34,616 nucleotides of DNA from Nitrospira sp. GTDB lineage: Bacteria > Nitrospirota > Nitrospiria > Nitrospirales > Nitrospiraceae. Each line of letters begins with the position of its first letter. The first letter of the stretch is position 1. The stretch covers positions 1-34,616 of the forward strand of contig JAOUMR010000026.1 in assembly GCA_029881435.1 (NCBI GenBank), in the 5' to 3' direction. The notes beneath the pieces are model-generated. The model saw nothing but the letters and a program-made list of their open reading frames with translations. It searched no databases and was not told where the DNA came from. Both the position numbers and the translations under genes were made by a program. Below, in pieces: positions 1,873-15,397 of the stretch.

Positions 1873-2913
1873 TTAGGCCATCCCTGTGCCATAGGCTGCC
1901 GAGAATCCATCTCGAGGATTCCACCACTGCAGCCGGCGTTTCGTGTTGGCGAGCTCCCGCCCGTTCTGTAAGAGGGCCAGATGTTTGCTCCGCCAGCGAT
2001 CCACCCCATCGACAATCGTACGGACGAGCCACCGTTCCCCGGCGTCCGGATGGGCACAGAGCAGGCTCAACGTGGGGGCCAAGCTTTTCTCCGCCCAGCG
2101 TTTGACCTGCTCGATCGTCTTCACCGCCTGCACGATCGCGAGTTTGGCCCGCTGCATCCCCTCCGTAAGCGTCTTCCACCAGGGGAGGATCGGAGCGTAG
2201 TAACGATCTTTGGGATCGTCCGCTCTGGTGCAATCGCGGAAATCCACGGCGGTCCGGAACACCCCGACGATGTAGCGTTGAAAGGAGTCCTGATCGAGGG
2301 TGGACAACGCCAATCCCACGGCCTGGGCTCGTTCGCGTTTCCATTCCATCTCCCAGCGCATCCAGGGTCCGTCGACTGGCTTCTCTTTGGCCCGTTGTTC
2401 TGCCGCTTTATCGTAGATCCGGAGATAGCTCTCCGATTGGCGAGACCCGAGGGCGAGTGTCTTGCCACGCTCAGCCCCTGTGGGGACATCCAGCCCGCCA
2501 ATGATCCGGCACTGCCGGAAGTGCGACACACAGTGGCCTTTGGCCACGGCCTCATAGACGCCGTCGACATCAATGACGCCGACCCGATCATCGAGCGCGA
2601 CATCGATCCGGCCGAAGTGCCCCTTCTGATCGAAGACCCACGCCGCCAGCTGATGAAACTTGTCGAAAGACCAATGACCAATCAGTTCTTGCGAGAGATC
2701 GACATGGACTTCGCGAGGTGCACGTTTCGCCCCTGTGGCGATCCGGCCATAGCCACTGTCATTGCCGCGACAAATCCAGACCTCCCGGTAGCCTTCATAC
2801 CCCTTCTCATCTCGGATCCAGTCCCCCTCACCGAGTACTCTCTTAAGGATCTCCACCGTGGAGGAAGGAACGGTGAACCGAAGCCATCCAATCGACATTG
2901 ACCAGTTGCTCAT
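1873..2913 (-). CDS. Rolling-circle replication initiation protein (Rep_trans-like)
   Basis: A 346-residue replication initiator of the phage/plasmid rolling-circle type. Two recognisable motifs appear in the expected order: an acidic metal-site motif RIDVALDD at residues 102-109 and the downstream SYLRIYDKA at 162-170, whose Tyr167 lies in the conserved YDK context of this family. Such proteins nick the plus-strand origin and attach covalently to the 5' end. The start ATG (2911-2913) overlaps the TGA of the upstream HTH gene and has GGAGG 10 nt upstream. It anchors the interpretation of 1-3.3 kb as an inovirus-like element. No integrase is present in the window, so host Xer recombination or an unseen recombinase would be needed for integration. 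Confidence 0.8.
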   Translation of the reverse strand: MSNWSMSIGWLRFTVPSSTVEILKRVLGEGDWIRDEKGYEGYREVWICRGNDSGYGRIATGAKRAPREVHVDLSQELIGHWSFDKFHQLAAWVFDQKGHFGRIDVALDDRVGVIDVDGVYEAVAKGHCVSHFRQCRIIGGLDVPTGAERGKTLALGSRQSESYLRIYDKAAEQRAKEKPVDGPWMRWEMEWKRERAQAVGLALSTLDQDSFQRYIVGVFRTAVDFRDCTRADDPKDRYYAPILPWWKTLTEGMQRAKLAIVQAVKTIEQVKRWAEKSLAPTLSLLCAHPDAGERWLVRTIVDGVDRWRSKHLALLQNGRELANTKRRLQWWNPRDGFSAAYGTGMA

Positions 2914-3221
2914 ACAGACCTCCGTGAACGTGGTTGGAATTTGCGCCCCCGTTTGACTAATCGGGGGCTCGGCTGCCCGTCGCGCCGTCGGCTGGCGCCG
3001 CCGGGCGCGCGGCGGGTCACTCCCTCCAGCGTATAGATGATGGGAGGCATATGATGTCCGTTATGCTGGATCGCCGCTCGTACCTGGTCCAGGTCGAACC
3101 GGACCATGCGCCCGAAGCGGATCACCGGGAGGAGACCCTTCCAGTAGGCGCGACGGATAGACACCACACTGACTTTCAAGACGGCGGCGAGTTCGGGAAC
3201 GGTCAACCAGGTGCTCTTCAT
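2910..3221 (-). CDS. Excisionase/MerR-type helix-turn-helix protein
   Basis: A 103-residue protein beginning MKSTWLTVPELAAVLKVS, followed by a region ending in RFGRMVRFDLDQV. This is the classic small winged HTH of the excisionase/AlpA/MerR-like group that binds DNA next to att or origin sites. The C-terminal 40 residues are very basic (Arg-rich). The ATG at 3219-3221 is chosen because AAAGGAA lies 6-8 nt upstream; a longer in-frame ATG at 3275 lacks a ribosome binding site. It overlaps the Rep start by 4 nt, so the two are co-transcribed. It likely regulates the rep operon, perhaps through the repeats at 3301-3340. Confidence 0.7.
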   Translation of the reverse strand: MKSTWLTVPELAAVLKVSVVSIRRAYWKGLLPVIRFGRMVRFDLDQVRAAIQHNGHHMPPIIYTLEGVTRRAPGGASRRRDGQPSPRLVKRGRKFQPRSRRSV

Positions 3222-3300
3222 ACGGTTCCTTTCATGACGCGCTGTGGCATGGGCGGACCCTACTCGGGTGTTCATGCCGGTGGAAATATCCCTGTTGCGG

Positions 3301-12126: not shown

Positions 12127-12399
12127 TTATTTCGTTTGCACGCCGCTCGACACTATAGAGCGCTGGAATTCAGCATTGGGCGTTTCAAAGCTTTTCCGGT
12201 AAGTCCCCATCGCCGTGGCATTGGCAACTCCATCTTGGCCTTCAACCGGATCCAGTTGCTCTCCGGCGGTTGGGTTCAACACTTGACTGGCCCTCATCTG
12301 TTGATAGGCCGTTCCCCAGTTGGGACTGATCGTCGTCGGCGCACAAGCTCCGGCCGTCAAACCGACCGTTGCGATTAAGATCCCCACAAGTCGTGTCAT
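12127..12399 (-). CDS. Small lipoprotein of Tad locus
   Basis: A 90-residue lipoprotein. The signal peptide MTRLVGILIATVGLTAGAC ends in a lipobox (AGAC). The mature part has the pattern GTAYQQMRASQVLNP, then PVEGQDGVANATAMGTYRKSF. A short outer-membrane lipoprotein next to the secretin gene could act as a pilotin or as the counterpart of RcpB/CpaD, which is otherwise missing here; that is inference. The ATG at 12397-12399 is chosen because of AAGGAG 7 nt upstream and the signal peptide it creates. Confidence 0.7.
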   Translation of the reverse strand: MTRLVGILIATVGLTAGACAPTTISPNWGTAYQQMRASQVLNPTAGEQLDPVEGQDGVANATAMGTYRKSFETPNAEFQRSIVSSGVQTK

Positions 12400-12445
12400 G
12401 GTTTGCTCCTTCTTTTGTCCAAAGGACAACGGTTGAACTATCGGG

Positions 12446-13891
12446 TTACGGCATCAGATGGCCGACACGGCCCTCCATTGCGCTGCCTGTGCTGATGCGA
12501 TTGGACAACATTTCCGCCGCAGGAGACCGTTGTCCTGCCTTGCCGCCGAAATAGCCTTTCTCGGAGAACCCCATCACGTAGAACTCGAAGTCGTTCGGCT
12601 CCACATAATAGTCCGTCGGCAACGTCTGCGCGGTCATGTCAAGCGGCTTCACTAAGTGCGGTGTCACGATGATTACTAATTCCGTTTCGCTCTTTTGGAA
12701 TGAACTGCTTCGGAACAAGGCACCTAGGATGGGAATCTCACCCAGAAACGGCACCTTTTTCACCGACTCCCTGACGTTGTCTCGCAACAACCCGCCGATG
12801 GCGAAGCTCTGTCCATCAGCCAATTCGATCGTCGTTGCCGCTCGCCTGGTCGAAATGGCGGGAACCGTGAACCCTTGTGTGCGTAACGCGTTCGAAAAAT
12901 CCAGTTCTGACACTTCCGGCGCGACATTCAGGCTGATGTGCTTGCGGTCCAAGACATTGGGCGTAAAGACCAACCCCACTCCGAACTTCTTGAATTGGAT
13001 CGTCACCAGACCAAATGCTTGCGGCACTGGTATGGGGAACTCACCACCGGCAAGAAACGCGGCTTCCTGGCCGTTCAACGCCATCAGGGTTGGTTTCGCC
13101 AACACTTTCAGCAAATTCTCTTCTTTGAGCGCATCGACAAATCCGATCCAGGTTGTGCCCCCGGCATTGAATCCGAAGGCGCCTTGGATCGCCTGCGTAA
13201 CCCCCGATGCCAAAGCCGGCGTCCCGCCCGTATAGGCGAGGCCGGCAATGCTCGTCAAATTTCCAAGCACGGAGAGGCCGAAGAAGTCGTTGCCGATTCC
13301 AGTAAAGTTGACTCCAAGCCGCCTGATCAATTCCCGGTTCATTTCAGCCACGCGGACTTCCAACATCACTTGTTGCACACCGCCGACCTGCATGGCATTC
13401 ACGATCTTCTTCGGCGCATAGGCCTCAGCCATGCTCAACGCCCGGTTCAGATTGTTGGCGTTTGAGGCAGTGCCCGAGAGCGTGATGTGATCGTGATCGG
13501 ACGTGACCAGGATGCCGTTTTCTTCCGGCAGGGTTTTGTGAAGATTCTCTTTCAGGCGGGTGACATCCGGCACGATCACCACATCGTACATGCCCATCAT
13601 CTTGCCGCTCTCATTCCACAGCGTGACATTCGTCACACCGATTGTCTTGCCGGTCAGGTAGATCTGCGTGGGAGAGAGGACGACCGTGTCGGCCACTTCC
13701 GGATTGGCCAATGACGCCCGCTTGATCGCCACGGGAAGATCCAGCACCTTCGATTTGCCCATGGTCAGCTCGAGCTTCTGAATGTCGCGCTGCTCCGCGG
13801 CTCCTGTTACCGATGCCTGCCCAAAGGCTTGGGTCTCGGCCAAGAGTGTGAGAGCACAGCCCATGATTGTGATCGCATTGCGTAATTTCAT
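12446..13891 (-). CDS. cpaC: Tad secretin RcpA/CpaC
   Basis: A 481-residue outer-membrane secretin through which the Flp pilus exits. There is a signal peptide (MKLRNAITIMGCALTLLAETQAFG), then the pilus-formation N-terminal domain (KSKVLDLPVAIKRASLANPEVADTVVLSP...) and a BON-like segment to about 170 (VTSDHDHITLSGTASNANNL). The secretin channel domain follows, with VMLEVRVAEMNRELIRRLGVNF near 180, VLAKPTLMALNGQEAAFLAGGEFPIPVP near 275, and ELVIIVTPHLVKP near 420. The ATG at 13889-13891 has GGAGGAGA upstream. Its N-domain is closely similar to the separate protein encoded just upstream. Confidence 0.92.
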   Translation of the reverse strand: MKLRNAITIMGCALTLLAETQAFGQASVTGAAEQRDIQKLELTMGKSKVLDLPVAIKRASLANPEVADTVVLSPTQIYLTGKTIGVTNVTLWNESGKMMGMYDVVIVPDVTRLKENLHKTLPEENGILVTSDHDHITLSGTASNANNLNRALSMAEAYAPKKIVNAMQVGGVQQVMLEVRVAEMNRELIRRLGVNFTGIGNDFFGLSVLGNLTSIAGLAYTGGTPALASGVTQAIQGAFGFNAGGTTWIGFVDALKEENLLKVLAKPTLMALNGQEAAFLAGGEFPIPVPQAFGLVTIQFKKFGVGLVFTPNVLDRKHISLNVAPEVSELDFSNALRTQGFTVPAISTRRAATTIELADGQSFAIGGLLRDNVRESVKKVPFLGEIPILGALFRSSSFQKSETELVIIVTPHLVKPLDMTAQTLPTDYYVEPNDFEFYVMGFSEKGYFGGKAGQRSPAAEMLSNRISTGSAMEGRVGHLMP

Positions 13892-13929: not shown

Positions 13930-14562
13930 TTAGAACTTCACTGCATTCACCGACGTCCCCTTGATCACTTCCACGGTCACAGTCTGCACATCAGGATGCC
14001 CCTTGCCTCCAGGCGGCTCGGGGTAGATCTTGAGAAAGTTCAGCACTTTCTTCGGCGCATAGGCTTCAGCCACCGCCAAGATCTGGCTCAGACGAGATTC
14101 ACTGGACACCGTCCCAAATACGGTCACATGGTCGTGGGTTCCCCTCAGACGAATATTCGTTTCATCCGGCAGCAGCTCGGCCAGCTGCTGTTTCAACCGG
14201 ACCAGGTCCACGCCCACATCCAGATCCAGGATGGCGAGCACCTTGCCGTCTGGTCCCCACAGCGTGAGGTTGGTCGTGCCATAGCCCTTCCCTGTCACGT
14301 AGATCTGTTTCGGACTCAGCACCATGGCATCGGCAATCTGCGGATCCGCCAACGATGCCCGCTTGATGGCGACGGGCATATTAACCACGGTCGACTTGCC
14401 GACCACTAGGTTGAGTTGCTGGGCGTCTGTTGATTGTGTAACGAGATGCATGCCCGTCTCCTTGGCCATGACGACCGAAGGCCCCGTCAGAAGAACCCCG
14501 CTGCAAACCAGGACTCCTATCCATTGTGCTTGAGTGCGTGATCGATGCTGTGTGAACTGCAT
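13930..14562 (-). CDS. Secretin N-domain-only protein with CpaB-like tail
   Basis: A 210-residue protein with a signal peptide. The secretin pilus-formation N-terminal domain includes VNMPVAIKRASLADPQIADAM, nearly the same as in the adjacent secretin, and a BON-like part is followed by AEAYAPKKVLNFLKI. There is no channel-forming domain, so it cannot make a pore alone. After a Pro/Gly linker it ends in VEVIKG-x5-VKF, matching the end of CpaB (VEIIKG-x5-IKF) encoded upstream. It may co-assemble with the periplasmic ring of the secretin. GGGAGG lies 7 nt before the chosen ATG (14560-14562). It probably arose by duplication of cpaC and recruitment of a cpaB-like end. Confidence 0.75.
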   Translation of the reverse strand: MQFTQHRSRTQAQWIGVLVCSGVLLTGPSVVMAKETGMHLVTQSTDAQQLNLVVGKSTVVNMPVAIKRASLADPQIADAMVLSPKQIYVTGKGYGTTNLTLWGPDGKVLAILDLDVGVDLVRLKQQLAELLPDETNIRLRGTHDHVTVFGTVSSESRLSQILAVAEAYAPKKVLNFLKIYPEPPGGKGHPDVQTVTVEVIKGTSVNAVKF

Positions 14563-14581: not shown

Positions 14582-15397
14582 TTAGAACTTGATTTCTTTA
14601 CGCACATCACCCTTAATAATCTCGACTCGAAACCCGCCTTCCCCGTTGGTCGCCGGCTTGGGGCGGTATGAACTTAACAACGATCCAACCCGAGCGCCTT
14701 TTGTCAGCACCTTCTCGCTGTTGAGAGGATTCCTCAATGCGAGCCGTAGCTTTCCCTGAGTAGAGGCCAGTGCCAGCTTCTCTGCCTCATCCACCTCCAC
14801 CTCCACCGTAATCACCTGCACCGGTTTCGGCTCCTCGTCTTTTCCCTTTCGCTCCATTTGCGTGCCGGCTGCCAACACCTTCACGTTTTCTAAGATCATT
14901 TTGGCGATCGCATGCTGTTGTCTACCCGTTTCCGGTTCGATCGTCACCATGACGTCGACGCGATCGGCGGGTTTGATGAACCCGGCGACACCAATGACAT
15001 CATCGACTTTGACCGACATGGCCCGCTTGTTCGGGTCCGTCACCGCCGCCACTCCGCCGACTGCCCCGACCGGCGCCAGCTTTGATTCCAGAAGCAGCTC
15101 ATTTCTTTTTAAATCTACGAGCACCACCCGGTCCTTAATCGCGTCCATCGTCGTAAAGTGTCCTTCGGGAATGGCGCCGGGCAGAACCTCCTGCATCAGC
15201 ATCATCTCGGGCGTCAGTTTGGTCCCCCAGGGAATATCGGCATTCGCCACCACCACCTGCACATTCTTGGTCGTGGACAATGGCGCCGCCAGCAACCGGC
15301 TTTTCTCGTTCTGTAGCCATGAGAACACGAGGACGCTGGTGACGAGGCCTAGCACCACCGCCAATCCGAAAAACACCAGAGGTCGATACCGCTTCAT
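14582..15397 (-). CDS. cpaB: Tad pilus assembly protein CpaB/RcpC
   Basis: A 271-residue CpaB/RcpC protein. It has one N-terminal membrane anchor (about 7-27), a SAF domain (VVVANADIPWGTKLTPEMM, about 48-110), then the RcpC domain (AMSVKVDDVIGVAGFIKPADRVDVMVT) and VITVEVEVDEAEKLALASTQGKLRLALRNP. The protein bridges the inner membrane machine and the secretin. Its ATG overlaps the TGA of a tiny upstream frame (15394-15480), and AGGAGG lies close upstream. It ends in VEIIKGDVRKEIKF, a tail also present on the next protein downstream. Confidence 0.9.
   Translation of the reverse strand: MKRYRPLVFFGLAVVLGLVTSVLVFSWLQNEKSRLLAAPLSTTKNVQVVVANADIPWGTKLTPEMMLMQEVLPGAIPEGHFTTMDAIKDRVVLVDLKRNELLLESKLAPVGAVGGVAAVTDPNKRAMSVKVDDVIGVAGFIKPADRVDVMVTIEPETGRQQHAIAKMILENVKVLAAGTQMERKGKDEEPKPVQVITVEVEVDEAEKLALASTQGKLRLALRNPLNSEKVLTKGARVGSLLSSYRPKPATNGEGGFRVEIIKGDVRKEIKF

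Follow-up and report, generated by a model that had tools for sequence, protein, structure and literature searches.

A short gene between cpaB and cpaC in the window (the whole stretch of 34,616 nucleotides analysed here, from contig C103 of the 3.72-Mb Nitrospira assembly G000) encodes a real and conserved component of a Tad pilus machine, one that is CpaI-like but takes a form not previously recognised. This gene and its orthologues are referred to here as N-only. On the available evidence N-only appears to work like CpaI of Caulobacter, and by this analogy it is probably a bridge of the Tad pilus in a relay running from CpaB through N-only to the secretin CpaC.

The reading frame of N-only runs from an ATG at 14562 to a stop codon at 13930 (Table 1), and the Pfam matches of its two domains differ in strength, with the secretin N-domain (PF13629) recovered at E 7.5e-23 and the BON domain only weakly at E 0.0018. 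The Pfam search did not find a secretin pore domain (PF00263), nor did it find the SAF and RcpC domains, leaving the tail as the sole part in common with CpaB, and NCBIfam holds no model for the protein. Over about 146 amino acids N-only shares 48% identity with the N-terminal region of its full-length neighbour CpaC. The earlier note had described an N-domain-only duplicate of the secretin; the lack of a pore holds, but the duplicated part comprises the BON-like domain as well as the N-domain. No lipobox was seen on reading the signal region. Like CpaI, N-only is a short protein, exported by prediction, with a single PF13629 N-domain and no pore domain, and like CpaI it is encoded inside a Tad locus, here flanked by cpaB and cpaC.

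Table 1. Positions in the window of N-only, its parts and the flanking Tad genes
Feature	Position	Strand	Basis
N-only, candidate CpaI-like bridge protein, 210 aa + stop	13930..14562	-	ORF, PF13629 + BON, orthologues, dN/dS
N-only predicted signal peptide, residues 1-34, h-region WIGVLVCSGVLLTGPSVVMA	14461..14562	-	read from sequence
N-only secretin N-domain PF13629, residues 47-116, VirB9-NTD/Ig-like fold	14215..14424	-	Pfam; AF2 model of orthologue and PDB matches
N-only BON-like domain, residues 123-178, also present in CpaC	14029..14196	-	Pfam; PDB matches DolP, OsmY, BonA
N-only Pro/Gly-rich linker, residues 179-195	13978..14028	-	sequence; 74% identity across orthologues
N-only putative C-terminal docking tail VEVIKGTSVNAVKF, 14 residues	13933..13974	-	DNA pattern, CpaB-tail profile, conservation
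cpaB, RcpC family, TIGR03177, ends VEIIKGDVRKEIKF	14582..15397	-	Pfam, NCBIfam
CpaB putative C-terminal docking hairpin + stop codon	14582..14626	-	DNA pattern, tail profile; hairpin predicted in orthologue
cpaC secretin: PF13629 N-domain, BON, pore domain	12446..13891	-	domain search

The surrounding minus-strand genes are those of a Tad locus, in the order Flp-like pilin (PF04964 score just below the cut-off), prepilin peptidase, cpaB, N-only, cpaC, a short protein resembling the end of CpaD, TadE, a TadE/G-like gene, a cpaE/TadZ-like gene, a CpaF-type ATPase (PF00437) and a TadB/TadC-like pair, the last two genes being named from reading alone rather than a database search. Only 19 bases separate the cpaB stop from the N-only ATG, which is preceded by GGAGG, and the genes therefore form one tight cluster. 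The start of cpaC was set at the ATG at 13891, which has GGAGGAG upstream. The 100-residue protein 3' of cpaC (12127-12429, minus strand) has a weak match, below the cut-off, to the C-terminus of CpaD (PF09476, E 0.0014), and may represent either a shortened CpaD or an envelope protein of other ancestry. Elsewhere in the window, a factor for replication initiation lies at 1873-3275 on the minus strand (E 4.9e-39 to Rep_trans PF02486, with a PHROG match to phage replication initiation) and adjoins a small HTH/excisionase-like protein, while an ORF downstream of it (49-945) is rich in Pro, Ser and Thr, looks exported and has no family matches. A small phage or plasmid has probably integrated here, next to the Tad locus.

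The evidence that ties N-only to CpaB is the C-terminal tail. The last 14 residues of N-only match the end of CpaB (VEVIKG-TSVNA-VKF and VEIIKG-DVRKE-IKF, respectively), and both run directly to the stop codon. A degenerate DNA pattern for the tail, allowed up to three mismatches, found two sites only in the 3.72-Mb assembly, those of N-only and CpaB, and the backwards-pattern control found none. A tail profile trained only on the CpaB tails of ten Nitrospirota loci without an N-only gene beside cpaC gave the N-only tail 28.9 bits and the CpaB tail of the window 27.4 bits. Over 4507 other ORF C-termini the maximum was 9.2 bits; because this set contains spurious ORFs, it stands for a null of matched composition and not for a proteome. 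The same profile was also run on 506,260 internal 14-mers, none of which reached 28.9 bits. A pairwise shuffle test of the two tails was weaker than the profile but pointed in the same direction (9 of 5000 shuffles). The pattern search across the assembly and the profile scores rule out a chance match, so the resemblance that the earlier note had read from the letters is confirmed and, judged by sequence, the N-only tail is homologous to the CpaB tails. Across loci the tails of N-only and CpaB fall into two separate sets, and for this reason there is no sign of ongoing gene conversion. That the N-only tail scores at least as high as that of its own CpaB would be expected if N-only had taken over the contact with CpaC, and is a weak hint in that direction.

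Identity among orthologues is highest in the tail (95%), followed by the BON-like domain (91%), the N-domain (89%), the linker (74%) and the signal region (51%). Values of dN/dS for orthologues against the window copy are about 0.08-0.17, and N-only is under purifying selection. The earlier note had named two findings that would speak against its reading, a tail missing from orthologues and a secretin truncated by a frameshift. Neither was found, as the tail is kept by every complete orthologue of Nitrospira and its close relatives, and a truncated or frameshifted secretin or a pseudogene is ruled out by the intact, full-length cpaC next to the gene, by the endpoint that orthologues share and by the purifying selection on the short gene. 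The same data bear on the notion that N-only is a neutral relic of a secretin duplication whose tail came from the CpaC strand that follows the BON domain. The two stretches do show a marginal similarity (VQQVMLEV in CpaC and VQTVTVEV in N-only, with 268 of 5000 shuffles as good), but the tail matches CpaB far better than this strand, it is the best conserved region of the protein, and the purifying selection largely refutes neutrality; a relic is scarcely credible.

Among 296 Nitrospirota genomes, 30 have a sequence match to the N-only query, a count that includes secretin N-domains. Nitrospira and its close relatives (G143, G018 and G245 among them) have the tailed gene, as does G269, a genome of the same taxonomic order, and every complete locus with the tailed gene on a sufficiently long contig has the gene directly between its neighbours, in the order cpaB, N-only, cpaC. 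In other Nitrospirota Tad loci, some from the same genus or family (G255, G055 and G179), cpaB lies beside cpaC with no N-only between them. The CpaB of such loci still carries the tail motif, sometimes with extra residues after it, and the tail is therefore an old feature of CpaB that N-only shares. Genome G269 has two Tad loci (L050 and L066), only one of which has the bridge gene flanked by cpaB and cpaC, and offers a natural comparison inside one genome. Related short PF13629 and BON proteins that lack the tail also occur outside Tad loci, in three genomes from another family of the same taxonomic order (minus strand; L051:5482-6102, L052:5569-6228 and L053:5447-6172). Two further candidates were rejected. 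A short PF13629 frame in L054 results from an assembly gap within a secretin. A 3268 bp contig (L012) carrying cpaB and the bridge gene in a Verrucomicrobia bin probably does not make that phylum a second host; its genes group with Nitrospira, the N-only gene is the sole PF13629 match in the bin, and all other PF13629 matches listed for 145 Verrucomicrobia genomes sit in frames of at least 460 amino acids. This contig is probably misplaced in the Verrucomicrobia MAG through a binning error.

Recent work on other Tad machines provides the framework for interpreting the tail. As described in parts of PMC12307814 (Nat Commun 2025), RcpC, the CpaB of P. aeruginosa, is a dodecameric periplasmic ring. 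In the models, the beta-hairpin at its C-terminus completes the sheet of the RcpA N-domain, and biofilm formation and aggregation that depend on Tad require this hairpin. The RcpA N-domain nevertheless co-purified with a construct lacking the hairpin, and oligomerisation matters too (PMC12307814). Because in the models this homologous hairpin completes the sheet of an N-domain, and because Tad function requires it, the tail of N-only is very probably a docking element. In Caulobacter, passages of PMC13170226 (mBio 2026) describe CpaI as a small periplasmic protein with the fold of the RcpA N-domain. In the models presented there, the C-terminal sheet of CpaI joins the N-domain of CpaC in the manner of a donor strand, and the C-terminal hairpin of CpaB docks on CpaI. 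Deletion of cpaI leads to secretins without an alignment complex (preprint cited in PMC13170226), many Tad systems have no clear CpaI orthologue (PMC13170226), and CpaI-like genes are recorded in Sinorhizobium (PMC10934763). The earlier note knew of no described Tad component with the build of N-only; according to these passages, the Caulobacter CpaI has it and is modelled to bridge CpaB to CpaC. The main-text passages of the Tad literature consulted contain no remark on a likeness between the tail of a bridge protein and the sequence of CpaB.

By analogy with this arrangement, N-only would be exported to the periplasm and would form a layer or ring between the inner-membrane ring of CpaB and the secretin. 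The beta-hairpin of CpaB (VEIIKGDVRKEIKF) would add strands to the N-domain of N-only, while the hairpin of N-only (VEVIKGTSVNAVKF), carried on the flexible Pro/Gly linker, would add strands to the N-domain of CpaC. The same plug-and-socket joint would then be used twice in series, resulting in a longer channel for passage of the pilus. The CpaB tail occurs both with and without N-only, as would be expected if its docking site is a PF13629 domain from whichever protein supplies it.

The earlier note had instead proposed that the shared tail is a docking tag for one common partner. While a docking element is well favoured, the analogy with CpaI makes the relay more likely than a single partner. 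Both tails might nonetheless sit on the N-domain of CpaC, with N-only as a second soluble ring or as a filler for a mismatch beside CpaB, and the near-identity of the two tails is in keeping with this, as are the CpaB tails of loci without N-only, where CpaC is the sole supplier of PF13629. A single socket would, however, leave the PF13629 domain of N-only itself without a partner, and the contacts modelled in Caulobacter are serial (in the passages of PMC13170226), making this arrangement unlikely. It is less likely still that N-only is a gatekeeper or decoy, which would occupy the hairpins of CpaB before the secretin is ready, or the N-domains of CpaC, against premature assembly of the channel. 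N-only possesses both halves of the joint and could cap either partner, and the RcpC hairpin has been raised as a lid before secretin docking, as a speculation in PMC12307814, but one of the two elements would suffice for a cap.

AF2 modelled the N-domain of an N-only orthologue with pLDDT above 90, and this domain has PDB matches to the N-terminal domains of VirB9 and TrwF and to other Ig-like domains, while the second domain matches the BON proteins listed in Table 1; a likeness of the RcpA N-domain to VirB9 was previously published (PMC10499894). As far as the models go, these resemblances are shared folds and do not in themselves show function. Contacts were modelled in linked pairs of natural same-frame neighbours in which the stop codon between them was read as a residue, such that the chains are artificial. 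In the AF2 model of the L012 chain (CpaB tail and N-only), the CpaB tail forms a hairpin with pLDDT of about 70-82, and the artificial linker next to it is likewise a strand. In that of the L005 chain (N-only and CpaC, stop read as Q), mean pLDDT is 61.8 and the N-only tail, at about 30, is undocked. The linked-pair models neither support nor disprove the relay. It could also be imagined that each N-only tail docks on the N-domain of the neighbouring subunit, building a homomeric ring in the periplasm beneath the secretin. A flexible linker would make such donor-strand exchange sterically plausible, but the resemblance of the tail to that of CpaB would be left unexplained and, in the AF2 chain, the tail is not docked on the N-domain of its own protein, which is weak evidence; a ring assembled in this way is very improbable.

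Phylogenetic analysis of the N-domain and BON regions united 16 tailed N-only proteins (96/92) within a group that includes the Nitrospirales secretins (92/90), and placed the alphaproteobacterial CpaI far off on a long branch. N-only probably originated from a local duplication of cpaC in Nitrospirales, independently of the alphaproteobacterial CpaI, an origin favoured because the BON domain is shared and N-only is close to the local secretin. The AU test did not reject a single clade of N-only and CpaI, and with it a common origin (p 0.27, with only 91 columns common to all). The gene would have arisen when the 5' part of cpaC was duplicated and gained a CpaB-type 3' end between cpaB and cpaC, and the tail could derive from a fusion with cpaB or from convergence of the strand next after the BON domain in the secretin. 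A broader and more tentative reading, which we hold to be possible but would not favour, is that the Tad channel is a stackable joint of PF13629 socket and CpaB-type plug, and that bridges combining a single socket with a single plug have arisen on more than one occasion, each bridge adding one layer. The cases would be the alphaproteobacterial CpaI and, in Nitrospirales, a duplicated secretin N-terminus fused to a CpaB-type tail.

The link between the inner- and outer-membrane halves of Tad machines was first modelled in 2025-2026, and the N-only locus illustrates that a CpaI-like part can exist yet go unrecognised. The N-only tail provides a sequence-level link between the CpaB hairpin and a bridge protein, which makes the plug-and-socket relay testable through swaps of short peptides or domains.

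Four known systems share parts of the N-only design. The N-terminal domain of VirB9, which forms rings in the core complexes of type IV secretion systems, has the fold of the N-only N-domain but is no sequence relative at the levels tested. The N-terminal region of CpaC/RcpA combines PF13629 and BON as N-only does, but the secretin continues into a pore. CpaB/RcpC (PF16976/TIGR03177) has the hairpin motif VEVIKGx5VKF at its extreme C-terminus, as N-only has, and differs in its transmembrane helix and its SAF and RcpC domains. The closest counterpart is CpaI of Caulobacter crescentus, together with the CpaI-like proteins of Sinorhizobium and other Hyphomicrobiales, which is likewise a small exported protein with one PF13629/RcpA-type N-domain and a C-terminal beta element. 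The CpaI and CpaI-like proteins compared are shorter (138-169 amino acids, against 210 in N-only), the CpaI-like proteins of Hyphomicrobiales have a single PF13629 N-domain and neither a pore nor a BON domain, and alphaproteobacterial CpaI tails compared individually with Nitrospira tails have no significant sequence similarity. The analogy between N-only and CpaI therefore rests on domain order, and N-only groups with the Nitrospirales secretins rather than with the alphaproteobacterial CpaI. What is new in N-only relative to CpaI is the position of its gene between cpaB and cpaC, the BON domain it has kept and its CpaB-like tail, to which the Pro/Gly linker adds a further difference.
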